A stretch of 62,377 nt of DNA from Chloroflexota bacterium (GTDB lineage: Bacteria; Chloroflexota; UBA11872). The notes under the pieces were generated by a model. That model made no database searches. It was given only the letters and a program-made list of their open reading frames with translations, and was not told the origin of the DNA. Each line of letters starts with the position of its first letter. Within the stretch, counting starts at the first letter, position 1. Position numbers and translations under genes: made by a program. Shown here piece after piece: positions 36,669 through 44,880 of this stretch. Where the stretch lies: NCBI GenBank assembly GCA_028874175.1, contig JAPPLN010000037.1, forward strand, positions 1 to 62,377, written 5' to 3'.

Positions 36669-36983
36669 ATGCAACGTATCGCCTTCGCTCTGCCCATCAA
36701 GCCCGACCGCGTCGACGACTACCGCCGCACTCACGCCGCCGTCTGGCCGGAGTTGCTGGAAGAAAATGTCAAAGCCGGCATCCGCAACTTCACCATCGTC
36801 CTCTTCATGAACCACGCTATCGGCCTCCTGGAGTGCGAGGACTGGGAAGCCGCCTCCGCCTACCTCGACAAGTCCGACGTCCAGGCCCGCTGGCAGGCCG
36901 AGCACGCCGACATCCTCGACGTCGACACCGCATCCGGCCTCGTCCCGCTCCAGATGCTGGAGGAACTCTTCCACCAGGACTGA
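36669..36983 (+). CDS. rhaM: L-rhamnose mutarotase (RhaM/RhaU family)
   Basis: This 104-residue alpha/beta (dimeric ferredoxin-like) protein interconverts alpha and beta anomers of L-rhamnose. It has IKPDRVDDYRRTHAAVWPELLEE, with the catalytic His in YRRTHAAVWPEL, and the conserved ECEDWEAASAYL region. GGAG about 8 nt upstream supports ATG 36669. No other rhamnose genes are adjacent, so it could act on another sugar (fucose, for example). Confidence 0.85.
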   Translation: MQRIAFALPIKPDRVDDYRRTHAAVWPELLEENVKAGIRNFTIVLFMNHAIGLLECEDWEAASAYLDKSDVQARWQAEHADILDVDTASGLVPLQMLEELFHQD

Positions 36984-37336
36984 CAGCCAGCCGCCGCCTG
37001 CAGGGGGATATCCCCTCTCCCCACGGAGACCTTTGCACAGCTCCCCTGGTCCTCGAATCTGCGGCCGCTTTCAGTCCCTTTCCTGGGGGCGAGCAGCTGT
37101 GTTGGGTGTCAATCTATTCAAGGGGTCGCCGGTCTTCGCCCTCTCCTGGGGGAGAGGCAGATTCCGGCGTCTTCGCCGGAAATCGGTGAGGGGTCTTCCG
37201 GGCAACCAGCCTTGGTTTACGCAGGGGCCTCCGACCGGTCACGACACTTCGCGCCTCCTCACCCTTGAATCCCCACGCCTCCGCCCCCACCATGTAGCTC
37301 GACACGGCCACAGTCGCCACACCGCAAGGACCCCTC
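36984..37336. other. Intergenic region with one repeat element
   Basis: The 353 bp between rhaM and ilvD hold a palindrome GGGGATATCCCC at 37004-37015 and one TIR-bounded repeat element (37025-37232). No gene recognised. The ilvD promoter should lie in the last 100 bp. Confidence 0.6.
37025..37232. repeat. TIR-bounded intergenic element, copy A
   Basis: This 208-bp element starts GGAGACCTTTGCA and ends with the imperfect complement GCAGGGGCCTCC. Inside are CCCTCTCC/GGGAGAGG and a second hairpin TTCCGGCG-TCTT-CGCCGGAA (37162-37181), then GGTGAGGGGTCTTCCGGGCA. It aligns along its length with copy B at 43033-43237. The hairpin stem differs between copies by paired changes. Confidence 0.8.
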
Positions 37337-39013
37337 ATGTCCGATCCACGCAAGCGCAACAGCGCCGCCATGACCGACGGCCCGGCCCGCGCGCCGGCCC
37401 GCTCCCAGCTCAAGTCCATCGGCTTTTCCGATGAAGACCTGGCCCGGCCCATCGTCGGCGTGGCGCACCAGTGGATCGAAACCATGCCCTGCAACTTCAA
37501 CCACCGGCGCATGGCCCAGCGCGTCAAGGAGGGCATCCGCGCCGCCGGCGGGACCCCCATGGAGGTCAACACCATCTCCGTCAGCGACGGCGTCTCCATG
37601 GGCACCGAGGGCATGCGCGCCTCCCTCATCAGCCGCGAGGTCATCACCGACTCCATCGAAGTCGCCGCCATCGGCCACTCCTTTGACGCCCTGGTCGTCA
37701 TCGTCGGCTGCGACAAGACCATCCCCGCCGGCGCCATGGCCCTGGCACGCCTCAATATCCCGGGCTTGGCCCTCTACAGCGGCAGCATCGCGCCCGGCAA
37801 GTTCCGCGGCCAGGACATCACCATCCAGGAAGTCTTCGAAGGCGTCGGCGCCCACGCCGCCGGCAAGCTCAGCGCCGACGAACTGATGGAAATCGAGAAC
37901 GCCGCCTGCCCCGGCGCCGGCGCCTGCGGCGGACAGTTCACCGCCAACACCATGGCCACCGCCCTCGACTTCCTCGGCATCAGCCCGCCCGGCGCCAACG
38001 TCGTGCCCGCCATGGACGGCGGCAAGGCCGACACCGCCTTCGAAGCCGGCCGCCTGGTCATGGACCTGCTCGACCGCGACGTCCGCCCCCGCGACATCAT
38101 CACCCGCGAATCCGTCGAGAACGCCATCTCCGCCGTGGCCGCCACCGGCGGCTCCACCAACGCCGTCCTCCATATCATGGCCATCGCCCACGAGGCCCGC
38201 GTGGACCTGGAACTCGAGGACTTCGACCGCATCGCCGCCCGCGTGCCCATCCTGGCCGACCTCAAGCCCTGGGGGAACTACGTCGCCACCGATGTGTTCC
38301 AGGCCGGCGGTCTCTCCCTCGTCGCCCGCGAACTCCACAAGCTCGGCCTCCTCCACGGCGACGAGCGCTACGTGGACGGCCGCTCCATCGCCGAAGTGGC
38401 CCAGGCCGCCCAGGAAACACCAGGCCAGCAGGTCATCTACCCCGCCGACAACCCCCTCAAGCCCACCGGCGGCATCCTCATCCTGCGCGGCAACCTGGCG
38501 CCCGACGGCTGCGTCATCAAGGTCTCAGGCCAGGAGCGCGACACCTTCACCGGCCCCGCCCGCGTCTTCGACGGCGAGGAAGCCTGCTTCCAGGCCGTCA
38601 TCGACCAGGACATCGAACCCGGCTCCTTCATCGTCATCCGCAACGAAGGCCCCGCCGGCGGCCCCGGCATGCGCGAAATGCTGGCCGTCACCGGCGCCAT
38701 CCAGGGCGCCGGCCTTGGCGACTCGGTCGCCCTGATGACCGACGGCCGCTTCTCCGGCGCCTCCCACGGCTTCATGATCGGCCACGTCGCCCCCGAAGCC
38801 TTCCGCCGCGGCCCCATCGCCGCTGTCCGGGACGGAGACCCAATCACCTTCGACGTAGCCAACCGCACCCTCAACGTGCACCTCACCGACGAGCAAATCG
38901 AGGAACGCCTCGCCGGCTGGCAGCCGCCACCCCCGCGCTACCCCACCGGCGCCATGGCCAAATACGCCGCCCTCGTCTCCTCCGCCAGCCAGGGCGCCGT
39001 CACCACCAACTAA
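37337..39013 (+). CDS. ilvD: Dihydroxy-acid dehydratase
   Basis: IlvD dehydrates 2,3-dihydroxy acids to 2-keto acids, the third common step of branched-chain amino acid synthesis. The 558-residue protein has Fe-S ligand cysteines in TMPCNFNHR, VGCDKTIPAG and GAGACGGQFTANTMA, and the C-terminal GRFSGASHGFMIGHVAPEA, with the Ser that acts as base in the family. It is monocistronic. The reading frame is extremely C-rich at third positions. A hairpin follows at 39039-39059. Confidence 0.95.
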   Translation: MSDPRKRNSAAMTDGPARAPARSQLKSIGFSDEDLARPIVGVAHQWIETMPCNFNHRRMAQRVKEGIRAAGGTPMEVNTISVSDGVSMGTEGMRASLISREVITDSIEVAAIGHSFDALVVIVGCDKTIPAGAMALARLNIPGLALYSGSIAPGKFRGQDITIQEVFEGVGAHAAGKLSADELMEIENAACPGAGACGGQFTANTMATALDFLGISPPGANVVPAMDGGKADTAFEAGRLVMDLLDRDVRPRDIITRESVENAISAVAATGGSTNAVLHIMAIAHEARVDLELEDFDRIAARVPILADLKPWGNYVATDVFQAGGLSLVARELHKLGLLHGDERYVDGRSIAEVAQAAQETPGQQVIYPADNPLKPTGGILILRGNLAPDGCVIKVSGQERDTFTGPARVFDGEEACFQAVIDQDIEPGSFIVIRNEGPAGGPGMREMLAVTGAIQGAGLGDSVALMTDGRFSGASHGFMIGHVAPEAFRRGPIAAVRDGDPITFDVANRTLNVHLTDEQIEERLAGWQPPPPRYPTGAMAKYAALVSSASQGAVTTN

Positions 39014-39038
39014 CCGGCGTGTCCGGCCTCCCGCGTAG

Positions 39039-39059
39039 GGGCAACCCTTGTGGTTGCCC
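39039..39059 (+). terminator. Hairpin terminator after ilvD
   Basis: GGGCAACC (39039-39046), loop CTTGT, GGTTGCCC (39052-39059), then TCTTCGCTTTG, moderately T-rich. 23 nt beyond the ilvD stop. The sequence GTAGGGGCAACCCTTGTGG looks like a dispersed palindromic repeat type, so it may have double identity. Confidence 0.6.
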
Positions 39060-39139
39060 TCTTCGCTTTGAGCCCCGAGCAATACACCACCCGCTAGGCT
39101 CGAAACTGACGCTCTGTCACGCGGGGACTGCTTCGCAGC

Positions 39140-39721
39140 ATGGCTAGGCCTGTATTGATTCTCATTTCCGGAGCGCCGGCTACCGGAAAGACAGTGCTGG
39201 CGCGCCGCCTGGCCGAAGCTCTGCCGGTCCCCGTCATCGAACGTGACGCCATCAAGGAAACCCTCTTCGACACCCTCGGCATCGGCGACCGCGCGTGGTC
39301 CAAGAAGCTCGGCGCGGCTTCATTCGCGCTGTTCTACCTCACCGTCGAGACGATTCTCAGCGCCGGCCGGTCGGTCATCGCCGAGGCGGCGTTTCATCGA
39401 CCCTACTCGGCCCGGTGGCTCTCCCGCGTACGAGAACGGTTCGACCTTGAAGTCCTCGAACTCCACTGTCACGCCGACTCCGCCACGGCGTTGTGCAGGT
39501 ATCTCAATCGAACAGGCACAGCCGACAGGCACGCGGGCCACGACGCCGGGATGAGCATCGAGGCCCAGGCCCGCGAATGGCGCCAGCAGTACCCTGTCTA
39601 CGGTCCGCTCACCGACGGCGCTGAACTCTTTCGAATCGACACAACCGACTTTGCTGCGATGGAGCATCAAGCAATCGTCGCGCGTGTTCGCGCCGCCCTA
39701 AACCTGAGCGCCGGGTGCTAA
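39140..39721 (+). CDS. P-loop kinase-like ATPase
   Basis: This 193-aa protein has Walker A ISGAPATGKTVLARRLA (Gly-rich loop at about 11-17) and a short lid. It resembles the gluconate/shikimate-kinase-like and Zeta-toxin-like AAA_33 group that phosphorylates small molecules or antibiotics. Further features are VIERDAIKETLFD (substrate-side Asp) and a Lys/Arg-bearing lid near RYLNRTGTADRHAGHD. The substrate is not deducible. It lies alone downstream of ilvD and upstream of a GNAT gene. Confidence 0.8.
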   Translation: MARPVLILISGAPATGKTVLARRLAEALPVPVIERDAIKETLFDTLGIGDRAWSKKLGAASFALFYLTVETILSAGRSVIAEAAFHRPYSARWLSRVRERFDLEVLELHCHADSATALCRYLNRTGTADRHAGHDAGMSIEAQAREWRQQYPVYGPLTDGAELFRIDTTDFAAMEHQAIVARVRAALNLSAGC

Positions 39722-39754
39722 GCGTCTCGAGGTCCTCAAAGGTTGGCTAGTGAC

Positions 39755-40258
39755 ATGGCCGACTTCACGATCCAGCCCTGCCGGCCGGGCGATTCCCACT
39801 ATCAGGCGACCCACGACTTGGCTGCAGCGTTGCGTCAGACTTCGTGGCTCACGGCGGACCATGCGTGGCATCTGGAGTCGCATCTTCTGATTGCGGTCGT
39901 ATCTAACCGTCCGGTGGGGTTTTTGCGCGTCGTTGTTCAGCAGATCGGGCCCGAATGCGACCGTCCCAGCATTACCAAATATGGCGAGCCTCTGCGCGAG
40001 GCCAAGGTGCTGGCCTTTGGTGTCGCCGAAGATCAACGACGCCGCGGTGTCGGAACCGCGCTGCAAAAGGAAATGATTCGGCTGGCCACGACCCTCGGCT
40101 GCTATCAGGTGCGGTCGCGGAGCGGCGGTAAAAATGTGGCCAACCACGCGCTCAAGCTCTCGCTCGGCTTTGGGGTACATCCCACAACAGCAGAGGATGC
40201 TGGGGTCTTCTTCGTACTGCCCCTGGCGAAAGATCCCGACGCAAACGCCAGCAGCTAG
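39755..40258 (+). CDS. GNAT family N-acetyltransferase
   Basis: This 167-residue protein has an acetyl-CoA-binding motif A in AFGVAEDQRRRGVGTALQKEMIRLA (R/Q-x-x-G-x-G as RRRGVG) preceded by a beta strand, and a late motif B in HALKLSLGFGVH. Substrate unknown. ATG 39755 is preferred; a TTG at 39743 is in frame. Confidence 0.8.
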   Translation: MADFTIQPCRPGDSHYQATHDLAAALRQTSWLTADHAWHLESHLLIAVVSNRPVGFLRVVVQQIGPECDRPSITKYGEPLREAKVLAFGVAEDQRRRGVGTALQKEMIRLATTLGCYQVRSRSGGKNVANHALKLSLGFGVHPTTAEDAGVFFVLPLAKDPDANASS

Positions 40259-40361
40259 CTATACCCGCGTGTCTCAGATGCTGCGAGGATCCAAACTCTC
40301 GCCGGATCCAAAGCACTCCAGCCCCGGCTGAAACTCGATCCCCAGCAAAAGCCGCTTGCGG

Positions 40362-41012
40362 CTACATCAGGGGGTGCATCGTTAGGGCCAGGGACGTCTC
40401 AATGTCCCAGACCGCCTGCGAAACCTCCCGGCCAATCAGGTCCAGCTTGCGCACCTGCTCGATCCGGCCGGTCACGTGCTCCAGCTCCCGCCGCGACAGC
40501 AGCTCGCGGAAGATTCCGCACGCCTCTGCCAGGCACACGATCACGATGTCCCGTGGGTCCGGAATCTCATCGCTGAACAGCACTTCCATGATCCGCAGCT
40601 TCACTTCCCGGTCGGCCTTGCCGTCCACCGCCGGGTAACGCCGCGCTTGGAACACCCACAAAAGCTTCTCGTCGCGCACGTGCAGGATGCCGTGGTCCAC
40701 CAGCCGCTCCAGGACCCGCTCGCGGATCGGGCCCGCGCGCTGGGCGATATCTTGAATCCAGAAGCGCGTGTCCCGTTCCCCGTCCGCCTGCGCAATCCTC
40801 TCCAGCGTCGGGTCCAGCAGGTCGTCGCCTACCGGCGTCGGGTCGATCACCGTCAGCCAGTTCGGGTCCGTGTCGATCCGGTTCTCCAGCGCCAGGTCCA
40901 TCAGCACCGCGCCAGCCAGCGCGCACTGCACCGACCACTCCGGCACCCGGACGAAATCGCCGCCCTCGTCGTCCAGCAACAGAAGCATGATCTCTTCAGG
41001 AAATCTCAGCAC
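40362..41012 (-). CDS. GOLPH3/VPS74 (GPP34) family protein
   Basis: The 216-residue product begins VLRFPEEIMLLLLDDEGGDFVRVPEWSVQCALAGAVLMDLALENRID, the typical GPP34 opening. Later it has WIQDIAQRAGPIRERVLERLVDHGIL and RRYPAVDGKADREVKLRIMEVLFSDEIPDPRDIVIVCLAEACG. Eukaryotic GOLPH3 binds PI4P on Golgi membranes; bacterial members are common in actinobacteria and of unknown role. GTG 41012 was chosen because AAGGAG lies about 8 nt upstream; the frame extends to 41147. Confidence 0.88.
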   Translation of the reverse strand: MLRFPEEIMLLLLDDEGGDFVRVPEWSVQCALAGAVLMDLALENRIDTDPNWLTVIDPTPVGDDLLDPTLERIAQADGERDTRFWIQDIAQRAGPIRERVLERLVDHGILHVRDEKLLWVFQARRYPAVDGKADREVKLRIMEVLFSDEIPDPRDIVIVCLAEACGIFRELLSRRELEHVTGRIEQVRKLDLIGREVSQAVWDIETSLALTMHPLM

Positions 41013-41182
41013 CGCCCACGCTCCTTTTCGTTTCCCATCTGATCTCCCGTCAGGATACCCGCGCCCGACTGCGACCGTATTCAATTGCTTCGAGAACTCT
41101 GCGCGCTGGGCAGCCGAACCAGCCACGTACAATCGGATACGCGGCAATTGGGCCGTTCTCCTGGGCGTGGAATCGGGCTGCC

Positions 41183-41512
41183 ATGACGGCTGACGACGCT
41201 GACCGCTCGCTGGTTGTAACCCTCCGATACTGGCGAGAAGACGACTTGTGGGTCGGCAAATGCGACGAACTTGGCGTGTCGACGTTCGATCCCTCGCTCG
41301 ACACGCTGGTTACCGAACTTCAGGAGATGGCCGAAGACCATATCCACCTGCTCCTGGAGACGGGAAGCCTGGATGACTTCCTGGAGCGCTTCGAGATTAG
41401 TCTGGAACCTGATGGCGTGCCATCGCGAACCCCCGAACTGTCAGTCAATTCAACATCAGACCTTGTTCAGCTTCACAAGCTTCGGATTGGCCAGCTAACG
41501 CCCAGCGCCTAG
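41183..41512 (+). CDS. hicB: HicB-like antitoxin
   Basis: This 109-residue protein has the partial-RNase-H HicB fold: LVVTLRYWREDDLWVGKCDELGVSTFDPSLDTLVTELQEMAEDHIHLLLE. No clear C-terminal DNA-binding domain is seen, though the tail could hold one. It precedes the hicA gene by 9 nt, the order used by many pairs. HicB binds and blocks HicA. Confidence 0.8.
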   Translation: MTADDADRSLVVTLRYWREDDLWVGKCDELGVSTFDPSLDTLVTELQEMAEDHIHLLLETGSLDDFLERFEISLEPDGVPSRTPELSVNSTSDLVQLHKLRIGQLTPSA

Positions 41513-41521
41513 GCCGTCGCG

Positions 41522-41773
41522 TTGAAGATCACCGCCAGGGAGCTAGTGCGTCTCTTGCTGCGCGACGGGTGGACCGACGAAGGACCATCCCGCCACGGAG
41601 TGAAGCTCTCCAAGCTGGATGGAGACCGACGGCGCGTAACCCAGATCCCGACCAAGAAGTTCCGCTCGAGATCGGCCATCCTCCCTCAAGGCACGCTCGG
41701 AGCAATCCTCAGCGATCGGCAGACGGGACTCGGCAAGAAGGGCCTGCAGCGACTGCTCGACCGGTTCGGCTGA
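41522..41773 (+). CDS. hicA: HicA-like mRNA interferase toxin
   Basis: The 83-aa product has the dsRBD-like HicA fold: TARELVRLLLRDGWTDEGPSRHGVKLSKL. The conserved His (SRHGVKLSK) is the expected catalytic residue, and the C terminus has the typical LPQGTLGAILSD. TTG start at 41522. It is probably the mRNA-cleaving toxin of this hicBA pair. Confidence 0.8.
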   Translation: MKITARELVRLLLRDGWTDEGPSRHGVKLSKLDGDRRRVTQIPTKKFRSRSAILPQGTLGAILSDRQTGLGKKGLQRLLDRFG

Positions 41774-41823
41774 GCGCCCCCTGACTCTCGCCTTCCACTA
41801 GCCGTCCGAACCAAGCCTCACCT

Positions 41824-42552
41824 TCACGCCCGCTCGTAGACCGATACGTGCCCCTCGCTCTTCGACGTAAACGCCGACCGGTCCCAATCACCCCATCGCT
41901 CCCGTAGCCGCAACCCCGCCAGCCGCGCCATCAGGTCGAGCTCCGAAGGCCACGCATACCGCAGCCGGGCCGGAAACACGCGGATGCCTTCTTCACTGAG
42001 CAGGACATGCCGGAAATCCACCAGTTGCTTCATCGGGTCGTGCGTCGACACATCCAGCCGCACCGTTTCCAGGTCCGGCAGCCGCGCCCGCACCTCCTGC
42101 CCCCGATCGAACCTCGTGACATCCGGAACAAACGCATCCACCAGGAATACCCCCGACTCGTCCAGGTGCGACGCCACGTTCTCGAAGCACCGAACCTGTT
42201 CCTCCTGCTCCGTCAGCATGAAAAAAGTGTTGTTGATGACGTAGACCAGCGAGAACGTCCCTTCTACCTCTACGCCCGCAAAGTCCCCGACGGTGACCGG
42301 CACCGACGCACCGCCCTCCTTGGCCCGTAGCTGCTCCACCATCGCCTCGGAGGCGTCGATCCCATGCACGTCCACCCCACGCGCCGCCAGTGGCAGCGCA
42401 AAGCTCCCGGTCCCAACTCCCAGCTCCAGTGTCCGACCGCCCGCGGTCAGTTCCTCAAGCACGTCCATTCGCAGGCCGACATCCACCGAGCCATAGAAGC
42501 TGTCGTACACGCCAGCCATCCGGTCCCCATACGTCGCAGCTGTGTAGTCCAC
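41824..42552 (-). CDS. Class I SAM-dependent methyltransferase
   Basis: This 242-residue Rossmann-fold methyltransferase has motif I ELGVGTGSFALPLA (about 43-56), acidic residue in HGIDASEAMVEQL, motif IV-like YVINNTFFMLTEQEEQVRCFENVASHLDESGVFLVD. Substrate is unknown. GTG 42552 start. A minus-strand intrinsic terminator lies only 42 nt upstream (42594-42617), which could be an attenuator or just the end of an upstream transcript. Confidence 0.85.
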   Translation of the reverse strand: MDYTAATYGDRMAGVYDSFYGSVDVGLRMDVLEELTAGGRTLELGVGTGSFALPLAARGVDVHGIDASEAMVEQLRAKEGGASVPVTVGDFAGVEVEGTFSLVYVINNTFFMLTEQEEQVRCFENVASHLDESGVFLVDAFVPDVTRFDRGQEVRARLPDLETVRLDVSTHDPMKQLVDFRHVLLSEEGIRVFPARLRYAWPSELDLMARLAGLRLRERWGDWDRSAFTSKSEGHVSVYERA

Positions 42553-42593
42553 CAGGATTCATCTCCATTTCTCGCAGCCAGGGCCAACGAAAA

Positions 42594-42617
42594 AGGCCTC
42601 CCGCTCCGGGGAGGCCT
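42594..42617 (-). terminator. Intrinsic terminator/attenuator candidate upstream of the methyltransferase
   Basis: On the minus strand AGGCCTCCC pairs with GGGAGGCCT (42594-42602 and 42609-42617) around 6 nt, followed directly by a T-rich tract (complement of AACGAAAAA). It points towards the methyltransferase start at 42552. No gene ends within 900 bp upstream on this strand, so it terminates a leader RNA or stray transcription. Confidence 0.65.
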
Positions 42618-42838
42618 CTGCTGACTTCGACCGTTCGTGCTAGGTCGCTAGCTTCTCCCCTCCGCGCCACGCCGCGGCGCGCCCGCCGGCGCCGGGCTTG
42701 TAGTCATGGTCGGGAAAAAACTGGCCACCGCTGTCGCCCCAATCAACTCGCCTACACGGTCATCCTACAGCCAAACCTCGGTTCCCAACCGACGCTCACC
42801 GCCTTCAGGCTCCCGCCGCTTTCCTACCCTCACCCGGT

Positions 42839-43025
42839 GGAAACCTTTGCGAAACCTCGCCTCGACCTCGAAAGCGGGGCAGCTCTTTCTCCCTCTCCCT
42901 CTGGAGACCTTTGCAAAATCCCTCTATGTCCTCGAAGGTGCGGCCCCTCTAAATCCCTCTCCTGGGGGAGAGGGCGAGGGTGAGGGGTCTTCCGAGCACC
43001 CACCCTCGGGTTACGCAAAGGTCTC
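42839..43025. repeat. TIR-bounded intergenic element, copies D (left arm only) and C
   Basis: A degenerate left arm GGAAACCTTTGC at 42839-42850 is followed by full copy C (42903-43025, 123 bp). C starts GGAGACCTTTGCA and ends GCAAAGGTCTC at 43015-43025. Copy C has the CCCTCTCC-TGGG-GGAGAGGG hairpin (42955-42974) but lacks the second hairpin of A and B. Confidence 0.75.
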
Positions 43026-43032
43026 TCTCCTG

Positions 43033-43237
43033 GGAGACCTTTGCATAACGCCCCGCGTCCGCCAAGGCGCGACCGCCCCTACTCCCGCCCCGGGGATAGC
43101 AACTGTGATCGGTCTCAATCCAATTCAGGGGACGCCGTTCTTCACCCTCTCCGAGGGGAGAGGCAGAATCGGCCGTCTTCGGCCGAATTCGGTGAGGGGT
43201 CTTCCGGGCACCCAACCCTGGGTTACGCAAGGGTCTC
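43033..43237. repeat. TIR-bounded intergenic element, copy B
   Basis: This 205-bp copy starts GGAGACCTTTGCATAACGCC and ends in GCAAGGGTCTC, the complement of the left end with one change. Its second hairpin is TCGGCCG-TCTT-CGGCCGA (43169-43186), which differs from copy A by compensatory base pairs. About one copy length (205 against 208 bp) is conserved. Confidence 0.8.
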
Positions 43238-43380
43238 TCTTCCTGGGGGAGAGGGTTGGGGTGAGGGGTCTTCCGGGCACCCACCCCCAGGGTTACGCAA
43301 AGGTCTCTCCTGGGGGAGAGGGTTGAAGCCTGCCCCGGACGCAATCCGCGGGTGAGAGGTCTTCCGAGCAACCAGGGTTC
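43238..43380. repeat. TIR-bounded element, right-arm fragments E and F
   Basis: Fragment E contains CTGGGGGAGAGGG, GGTGAGGGGTCTTCCGGGCA and ends GCAAAGGTCTC at 43297-43307. Fragment F (43308 to about 43380) repeats the same order in decayed form, ending AACCAGGGTTCAAAG. They are chained head to tail with copy B. Confidence 0.65.
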
Positions 43381-43412
43381 AAAGTGACCCACTGCCGGAG
43401 CTTTCCCCGACA

Positions 43413-43468
43413 CGGACCCACGCCCTGAGGGCGCAGCCCTCACGGGCCGCTCAGCGCGCCGGCGCCGC
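43413..43468 (+). repeat. 56-bp direct repeat, left copy
   Basis: Matches 45632-45687 without gaps at about 46 of 56 positions; the core CACGGGCCGCTCAGCGCGC (43441-43459) is identical. The two copies bracket the tape-measure-like gene and the small membrane gene. Confidence 0.7.
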
Positions 43469-43596
43469 CTCGGCGTGGCCGCAACGTCATCGGCTACCGT
43501 GCCGGGCCCTTCCATCGGGCGCCGCATTCAGCAACGTCGGGTCGCGAGACTTCGCCTACGGGAACGGCCGCAGCGAGGTCCTGCGTAGCCGGGCGA

Positions 43597-44880
43597 TCAA
43601 TTGAACCCCAGGTCCACCGTCCGGCGGCTGGTGCGGATCAGCTCCTGCCGGATGCGTTGCGCCAGGTCGCGTTCCGCCACCACGCTGCCTTCCACGGTCA
43701 CGTTCACGGTCACCTCACTGCCCAATCGCGGGTTCGGGATCACCTGCGAGCCGCGCGGCAAATTCACCAACTCCGGCCCCATCTCCCCCACCAGCGCCAT
43801 CCCGCCCGGCGCAAAGTGCGTGCCGCTGGCGTAGCTCGGAAGCTGATTCGCCAACTCTTGCTTGTGCGCCGTCCACCACGCTTCGGGACTGGCATAGAGC
43901 GAGATGTTGTGTCCCATTTCGCGTTGCGACAGGAAGAGATCCTCCAGGTCCGCTGGCGGCGGCATGTTGAGAATCCGCTGGCGCTCCGCCTCAATGGCCT
44001 CGCGTCTGGTCAGGCCCGGGTCGGCGTGAGCTACGCCGCCCGTCGGCGGCCCCCAGCCGCCGGCTCCGGCCGGCATCCGCGGCATGGCGGCCAGGAGCTG
44101 CAACGCCTCCACCGTCGACAGGCCCTGGGCCTCCAGCATCCCCAGATCGCCGGTCAACGCGAGCGCCTCTTGCCGGCCCACGCCCATCGACGCACTCATG
44201 TCGTCCATGCCCAGCGTCGCGAGATCGACCGTGCCGCCTAAAGCCCCGACCCCATCGTCCAGCTCATCAACGCTGTCCCAAAGCCTTCCCGTCGCCTGCG
44301 TCGCCTGGTCGGCCGACGGCGCCACTTCATCCAGCGTCCTGTGGAATTCGTTGAGCTCCATGTGCAGGCCCGGATCCCACGACTTGCTGAGCGAATAATC
44401 CGTGCCGGGGAGCAGGCTGCTGAGCGACTGATGTGCCCATGTGCCCAGGTCATTGAGCCGATCGCCGCTCCATCCCAATGCAGATCTAATGACCTCTACT
44501 TCTGCCAGGCCATGATCAGCTGCCTGCCGAACATTGGTAGGAATAAAGTCATTGATAGCTCCAAAAAATTTATCAGTATGCCTGCTAATCAAATCCACCT
44601 CTGTTGGTGTGGGCAAGCCGAGAGTGCGAAATATATCTAAATACTGATCGAAAGCCATATTTACATATGGATCAAATCCCTGATTAAAGAGCGATCCGAC
44701 ATCAGTATCAGGCTGAATAGGGCTGAAGCCTCCACCTTCTCCCATTACCAGGTGTATTCCTGCGATAGGATCGTTGTAGTGTCGGTGACTCGTATTAAGA
44801 TGCCTGAAGGTCTCAGGCCGCGATTCGTGGAGTTGACCATCACGTTCACTGGCTTCGCCTGCCGATTCACCTTGGCTCAT
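43597..44880 (-). CDS. Phage tail tape-measure-like protein, isolated
   Basis: The 427-aa product has a C-terminal motif typical of phage tape measure proteins: GTHFAPGGMALVGEMGPELVNLPRGSQVIPN (about 360-390), then a beta-strand with VTVNVTVEG and a basic helix. The N-terminal half is hydrophilic and helical without long hydrophobic segments. Real tape measure proteins are usually much longer and sit among tail genes; none are here. ATG 44880 has GGAGG 6 nt upstream, preferred to the start at 44955. The 5' part (44450-44800) is AT-richer than the rest. It may be a domesticated or chimeric phage remnant; function unknown. Confidence 0.6.
   Translation of the reverse strand: MSQGESAGEASERDGQLHESRPETFRHLNTSHRHYNDPIAGIHLVMGEGGGFSPIQPDTDVGSLFNQGFDPYVNMAFDQYLDIFRTLGLPTPTEVDLISRHTDKFFGAINDFIPTNVRQAADHGLAEVEVIRSALGWSGDRLNDLGTWAHQSLSSLLPGTDYSLSKSWDPGLHMELNEFHRTLDEVAPSADQATQATGRLWDSVDELDDGVGALGGTVDLATLGMDDMSASMGVGRQEALALTGDLGMLEAQGLSTVEALQLLAAMPRMPAGAGGWGPPTGGVAHADPGLTRREAIEAERQRILNMPPPADLEDLFLSQREMGHNISLYASPEAWWTAHKQELANQLPSYASGTHFAPGGMALVGEMGPELVNLPRGSQVIPNPRLGSEVTVNVTVEGSVVAERDLAQRIRQELIRTSRRTVDLGFN

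Follow-up and report, generated by a model that had tools for sequence, protein, structure and literature searches.

Nested intergenic elements of a Chloroflexota genome as probable MITEs of an IS5-family insertion sequence that enters palindrome loops

Introduction

Intergenic repeats are common in high-GC bacteria, and to our knowledge their cause is not established. The IS5-family MITEs of bacteria form one described class of such small elements, being non-coding, bounded by the terminal inverted repeats of a full-length insertion sequence and flanked by target duplications. IS5 itself duplicates 4 bp of its target. Transposons that target palindromic repeats are known as well: REP-targeting insertion sequences insert at sites with palindromic structure, and transposases of several families, among them IS5, IS4, IS3, IS110 and IS256, are described as inserting into repeated palindromes (Tobes and Pareja 2006, PMC1525189). 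REPINs, and the GTAG and CGTC REPs described in PMC3733652, are palindromic intergenic repeats present in many copies. The Rfam family whalefall-1 (RF01762), which PMC2864571 lists as certainly RNA and as known only from whale-fall samples, comprises a CUCUCC-loop-GGAGAG hairpin, a second hairpin that is variable but paired, and a GUGAGG tail.

Here, we analyze a 62,377-nucleotide stretch of a Chloroflexota bacterium (the window; contig JAPPLN010000037.1 of assembly GCA_028874175.1), in which an original prediction, made from the letters alone, had described two terminal-repeat-bounded elements, copies A and B, and a chain of partial copies. These elements are very probably MITEs of an IS5-family insertion sequence that insert into palindrome loops and nest in one another. 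They resemble the known IS5-family MITEs in the three features listed above and differ from them in a duplication of 5-6 bp, in palindrome-loop targeting and in composites that apparently arise by nesting. Unlike in REP-targeting insertion sequences, the element's own MITEs carry the target palindrome, so that targets multiply along with the element and become nested; this self-nesting is what sets the system apart.

Results

Copy A (37025-37232) and copy B (43033-43237) share 77% identity over their full length and agree in ends, length (208 and 205 bp) and internal order, as originally predicted. The shared ends, GGAGACCTTTGC...GCAAAGGTCTC, were recovered in both copies, with the right end of A decayed to GCAGGGGCCTC. 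The terminal repeat proper begins with GAGACC, because other copies show A or T preceding this motif; a GGAGACC repeat combined with a 4-bp duplication was rejected on the same observation. Carrying terminal inverted repeats and no transposase gene at a length of ~205 bp, A and B have the makeup of MITEs. Treated as single-stranded DNA, their double hairpins fold better than 200 of 200 dinucleotide shuffles (z = -4.10 for A and -3.81 for B). Copy A shows no clear target duplication in its flanks (left ...CCCACG, right CGACCG...), and its presence varies between species: among 11 related loci holding the orthologous site, seven lack the element, three carry related elements elsewhere in position, and one contains a long different sequence.

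Table 1. Coordinates of elements and motifs in the window; gathering denotes the Rfam cut-off
Feature	Position	Strand	Remark
Copy A, probable MITE of ~206 bp	37026..37231	+	Flanked by rhaM-like gene and ilvD/edd-type dehydratase gene
Copy A hairpin 1, CCTCTCC-TGGG-GGAGAGG	37140..37157	+	Putative landing-pad palindrome
Copy A hairpin 2, TTCCGGCG-TCTT-CGCCGGAA	37162..37181	+	Exact
Copy A, whalefall-1 match	37137..37195	+	Below threshold (28.5 bits, gathering 37)
Left half of outer probable MITE	42840..42903	+	Ends at palindrome arm CCCTCTCC
Probable MITE of 122 bp	42904..43025	+	Both terminal repeats, hairpin 1 only; adjoins palindrome arm of outer copy
Target duplication TCCTGG, left copy	43028..43033	+	Of 274-bp composite
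Copy B, probable MITE of 204 bp	43034..43237	+	Hairpins 1 and 2
Copy B hairpin 1, CCTCTCC-GAGG-GGAGAGG	43146..43163	+	
Copy B hairpin 2, TCGGCCG-TCTT-CGGCCGA	43169..43186	+	Exact
Right half of probable MITE	43238..43307	+	Palindrome arm to right terminal repeat
Target duplication TCCTGG, right copy	43308..43313	+	
Right half of another probable MITE	43308..43380	+	End decayed, to ~43380

Using B as the query, a search of its own genome returned 60 matches (E ≤ 0.001), and terminal-repeat sites with up to two mismatches numbered 129 versus 15 for a reversed-pattern control; the abundance of B-like copies and terminal repeats is far above chance. Pairing of the ends yielded 114 end pairings, an over-inclusive set containing false pairings from nested ends, with recurring lengths of ~122, 142, 204-205 and 267-268 bp. 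One hairpin is present in the 122-bp class and two are present in the 142- and 204-bp classes. At several loci (L011, L015, L017, L042 and others), the spacer between hairpins 1 and 2 holds extra inserts of ~24 bp, all at one place. These consist of either CCTGTCCTGAGCTTGCCGAAGGA or a hairpin of CCCCGGACTCGATCCGGGG and give the spacer the look of a cassette site.

Full-length elements with a transposase between the same ends, which the original prediction had proposed to look for, are present at five loci of relatives within the genus, family and class, where both terminal repeats lie 1190-1217 bp apart around a long transposase frame. Relatives of the transposase fragment occur in 33 of 61 genomes (E ≤ 0.001), and the five loci are among them. 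The two transposases of relatives that were scanned match Pfam DDE_Tnp_1 and DUF772 and score 287.3 and 272.5 bits with NCBIfam NF033581 (IS5 transposase; cut-off 140). Assignment to the IS1182 family was rejected, with NF033551 reaching 193.7 and 182.5 bits, below its cut-off of 270.

In the window's own genome, the same ends surround a DUF772-domain transposase that has decayed (L040:1104-2232), and no intact representative of this transposase type was found there, the copies being decayed or cut by contig ends. Twelve contigs break in the transposon (C7, C19, C27, C34, C52, C59, C82, C93, C107, C108, C113 and C118); eight stop in one of two identical stretches, the remaining four in the other. 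Each stretch opens with the terminal repeat and continues for 37-54 bp up to the contig end. A congener (L076) has a 1193-bp transposon whose two ends agree with these stretches at 50 of 54 and 53 of 54 bases. Such breaks are assembler behavior at a multi-copy transposon, whose copy number is under-reported.

Target duplications, a further check named in the original prediction, were found. Exact flanking repeats of 5 bp border 12 of the over-inclusive 114 end pairings (shuffled partners, mean 1.4, maximum 6), and exact repeats of 6 bp border 11 of the 114 (mean 0.55, maximum 4). Once duplicates were removed, 22 elements flanked by exact repeats of 5-6 bp remained, differing from the 4 bp of IS5 proper; not all 22 are independent, as the flanks of L010 and L134 are the same in two species. 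For 10 of the elements, the arms beyond the duplication are complementary at seven or more of eight positions, and there the duplication thus forms a palindrome loop. Arm positions 3-8 are paired in 18, 17, 14, 15, 15 and 12 of the 22, compared with 10.5, 8.1, 7.8, 10.1, 11.2 and 7.5 in the shuffled control, while positions 1 and 2 show no difference from it (18 and 15 observed versus 16.5 and 14.1 of 22). Two of the 22 are whole transposons inserted in different palindromes, CTCTCC-CTCAAG-GGAGAG and TTCCCG-CCTTCG-CGGGAA, and for some duplications (e.g., L014, L018 and L045) the surrounding palindrome is weak or absent.

The sequence CCTCTCC, with one mismatch allowed, occurs no more than 16 nt outside 42 of 83 element ends in the own genome; for random positions, the frequency is 3.4% when they are drawn from these loci and 1.8% when they are drawn from the window. 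The MITE has this very palindrome, CCTCTCC-loop-GGAGAGG, as its hairpin 1; it thus brings along a landing pad, and its copies nest. At three sister-genus loci (L077, L078 and L082), IS5 copies adjoin TTCCCG arms, a palindrome other than CCTCTCC. Sites with TTCCCG arms suggest that being a palindrome counts for more than any one sequence.

The head-to-tail chain of partial copies originally described at 42839-43380 is real, and its parts could be located (Table 1). The ends at 43034 and 43307 share an exact 6-bp TCCTGG, which identifies B and the adjoining right half as a 274-bp composite (43034-43307); the 122-bp copy has no clear target duplication. Nesting is clearest at L164, where a 295-bp outer unit, flanked by the duplication GCATAG, encloses a 143-bp inner unit whose ends touch CAGAG repeats within CCCTCTCC-CAGAG-GGAGAGGG. 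Five of the 22 duplication-flanked elements measure 267-274 bp, a size that joint movement of a nested pair would predict. No clean empty site of the cluster was found among six related loci, because the right-hand neighbor gene differs in the relatives; four of these (G005, G006, G010 and G012) are without the element, one (G009) carries a single related element of ~100 bp, and one (G008) is diverged.

Hairpin 2 had been reported to differ between A and B with its pairing and TCTT loop kept, which holds exactly in both copies. The covariation set comprised 101 copies, 60 of them distinct, with a 27-nt spacer and a 4-nt loop. Across the 101 copies, pair 8-21 is G-C in 70, C-G in 27, A-T in one, T-A in one and broken in two; pair 4-26 is A-T in 81, G-C in 18 and broken in two; and pair 10-19 is C-G in 51, G-C in 22, T-G in one and G.G in 25, with two others. 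Over the 60 distinct rows, 516 of 540 cells are paired (shuffle mean 457, maximum 473). Four of the six strongest coupled column pairs are base pairs (8-21, 4-26, 5-25 and 10-19), the excess of compensatory changes that had been anticipated, and the other two are pairs of neighboring loop columns.

G-T pairs are absent at 4-26 and 8-21 and occur in one copy at 10-19 and two at 5-25 (of 101 in each case), a near absence that argues against stepwise change under RNA selection. The covariation noted in the original prediction is confirmed, and selection on RNA as its cause is not favored. A DNA hairpin, arm-templated repair or inter-copy recombination explains the covariation at least as well as RNA selection, and a process acting on DNA rather than RNA is the more likely keeper of the pairing.

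Quite possibly, hairpin 2 covaries by mutation bias instead of selection, through arm-templated repair (template switching) or recombination moving whole variants. The copies are repeats open to recombination, pair 8-21 flips from G-C to C-G with just two copies broken, and G-T intermediates are nearly missing. On a tree of 100 copies built with hairpin 2 left out, the pair and the single columns change equally often (24, 23 and 23); the tree is poorly resolved, with 3, 5 and 2 supported independent pairs. Two points count against mutation bias: the G.G mismatch persisting at 10-19 in a quarter of the set (25 of 101) indicates that correction is inefficient, and the tree rests on 133 columns and holds only three supported independent pairs.

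Palindromes of the hairpin 1 kind also accompany endonuclease genes with the domain DUF559, which has 12 matches in six of 13 genomes of the genus and none in the window's own genome. A CCTCTCC-GGAGAGG palindrome lies in the 3-kb locus of each of the nine short DUF559 genes (seven of nine under stricter hairpins within 500 bp); the three weak matches, located in long frames, lack one. Across the phylum, DUF559 matches were obtained from 45 of 151 genomes. A perfect 8-bp pyrimidine/purine hairpin lies no further than 500 bp away at 19 of the 28 loci retrieved, and at 14 of them on both sides. Hairpin density is 1.94 per kb at the 28 loci versus 0.05 per kb in controls, which were taken at a distance of 9-12 kb in 20 of the genomes and have hairpins in two of 60 1-kb windows. 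Since these controls are largely genic, an intergenic effect may contribute to the excess. The pyrimidine/purine kind accounts for 53 of 74 hairpins at DUF559 versus three of 20 in controls. At loci L221-L225, L227-L229, L231 and L233-L260, DUF559 genes lie amid pyrimidine/purine palindromes, often on both sides, and the palindromes sometimes form ~100-bp tandem arrays without IS5 ends.

We tentatively propose, as a possibility, that pyrimidine/purine CCCTCTCC-loop-GGAGAGGG palindromes, followed by an optional second, hypervariable hairpin and then by GGTGAGG, may be a single widespread class of mobile DNA whose partners are DUF559 (Vsr-like) endonucleases. Whalefall-1 would be a member of this class and not an RNA gene, and the IS5 elements and MITEs of the genus may form a second layer that lives off the palindromes and captured them. 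The DUF559 literature mentions a Vsr-like protein (in PMC12907096). No evidently related work on DUF559 with repeats and palindromes was found in the open-licence literature, which is no proof of novelty.

Matches to RF01762 in the window score 28.5, 25.5 and 25.0 bits, all below the cut-off of 37, and the best scores reach 31.4 bits in the own genome and 33.4 bits in the genus; with scores below the cut-off, the element is not filed as whalefall-1. Matches (E ≤ 0.001) occur in 22 of 61 relatives, none above the cut-off, and in none of 14 control genomes. The element has the two consecutive hairpins and the tail of whalefall-1, but the motif here lies within terminal inverted repeats, and two of the three best genus matches are within MITEs (L190, with the right end GCAAAGGTCTC and CACAGA on either side, and L169, with both ends). 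In a class-level genus (g8), the loci read have hairpin 1 and the tail only. Other Rfam families gave two matches in the window region, both far below their cut-offs.

A pattern scan of genome contigs for whalefall-1 gave five loci, four of which were searched with Rfam: L202 scored above the cut-off, L200 and L201 below it, and L199 had no match. L199 and the fifth locus, L198, resemble chance matches. At L202:3927-4501 (JAUICM010000007.1, a Rhodothermia MAG), two whalefall-1 copies of 50.2 and 60.1 bits, 518 bp apart and in the same orientation, flank a DUF559-domain gene (105 bits). This MAG has 17 whalefall-1 matches, seven of them above the cut-off, composed of two inverted pairs ~30 bp apart, two copies beside DUF559 and one alone; the second hairpins of the copies differ in sequence. 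In two Caulobacterales MAGs, similar two-hairpin units form inverted pairs at L200:502-640 and L201:6022-6073 (33.6 and 29.7 bits with whalefall-1, under its cut-off), the former also with a sub-threshold match to a microRNA family.

That the hairpins are a functional whalefall-1-like RNA, with the terminal repeats incidental and the covariation due to RNA selection, is improbable. The sub-threshold matches, the strong covariation at 8-21, 4-26, 5-25 and 10-19 and the cataloguing of whalefall-1 as certainly RNA in PMC2864571 speak for it, but the copies are mobile, nested and inside terminal repeats, G-T pairs are nearly absent, and above-cut-off whalefall-1 copies are themselves inverted pairs or gene-flanking. 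A sigma-70 consensus scan of 36800-43700 found no promoter-like site, which is weak evidence.

Movement as REP/REPIN elements by a RAYT (Y1) transposase is very improbable: the elements are likewise short, palindromic, intergenic and many-copy, but their terminal repeats are of DDE type with target duplications, neither a GTAG nor a CGTC tag marks the foot of the hairpins in A and B, and Y1_Tnp (PF01797) was found in none of 13 genus genomes versus five of 14 control genomes, with 8% of the own genome unassembled.

Discussion

For the IS5-family MITEs that we propose, a DDE transposase would recognize in trans the ends GAGACCTTTGC(R)(N)AA...TTnYGCAAAGGTCTC; the miniature copies would thereby be mobilized by the full-length element. 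Insertion duplicates 5-6 bp of target, preferably where these bases are looped out between palindrome arms, as in CCCTCTCC-N-GGAGAGGG, and such a palindrome may be preferred as a structure and not as a sequence. Hairpin 1 of the MITE being that palindrome, older copies would become landing pads for new ones. Nesting creates chains, and a nested pair could move on as a larger composite, producing the sizes of 122, 142, ~204, ~268 and ~295-329 bp.

For sequences within mobile repeats, strong covariation does not by itself have to indicate a functional RNA. If the link between DUF559 and palindromes is causal, it would provide an agent for the intergenic repeats of high-GC genomes. Miniature copies that carry the preferred target of their own transposase would offer a simple route by which repeat families grow, nest and form composites.
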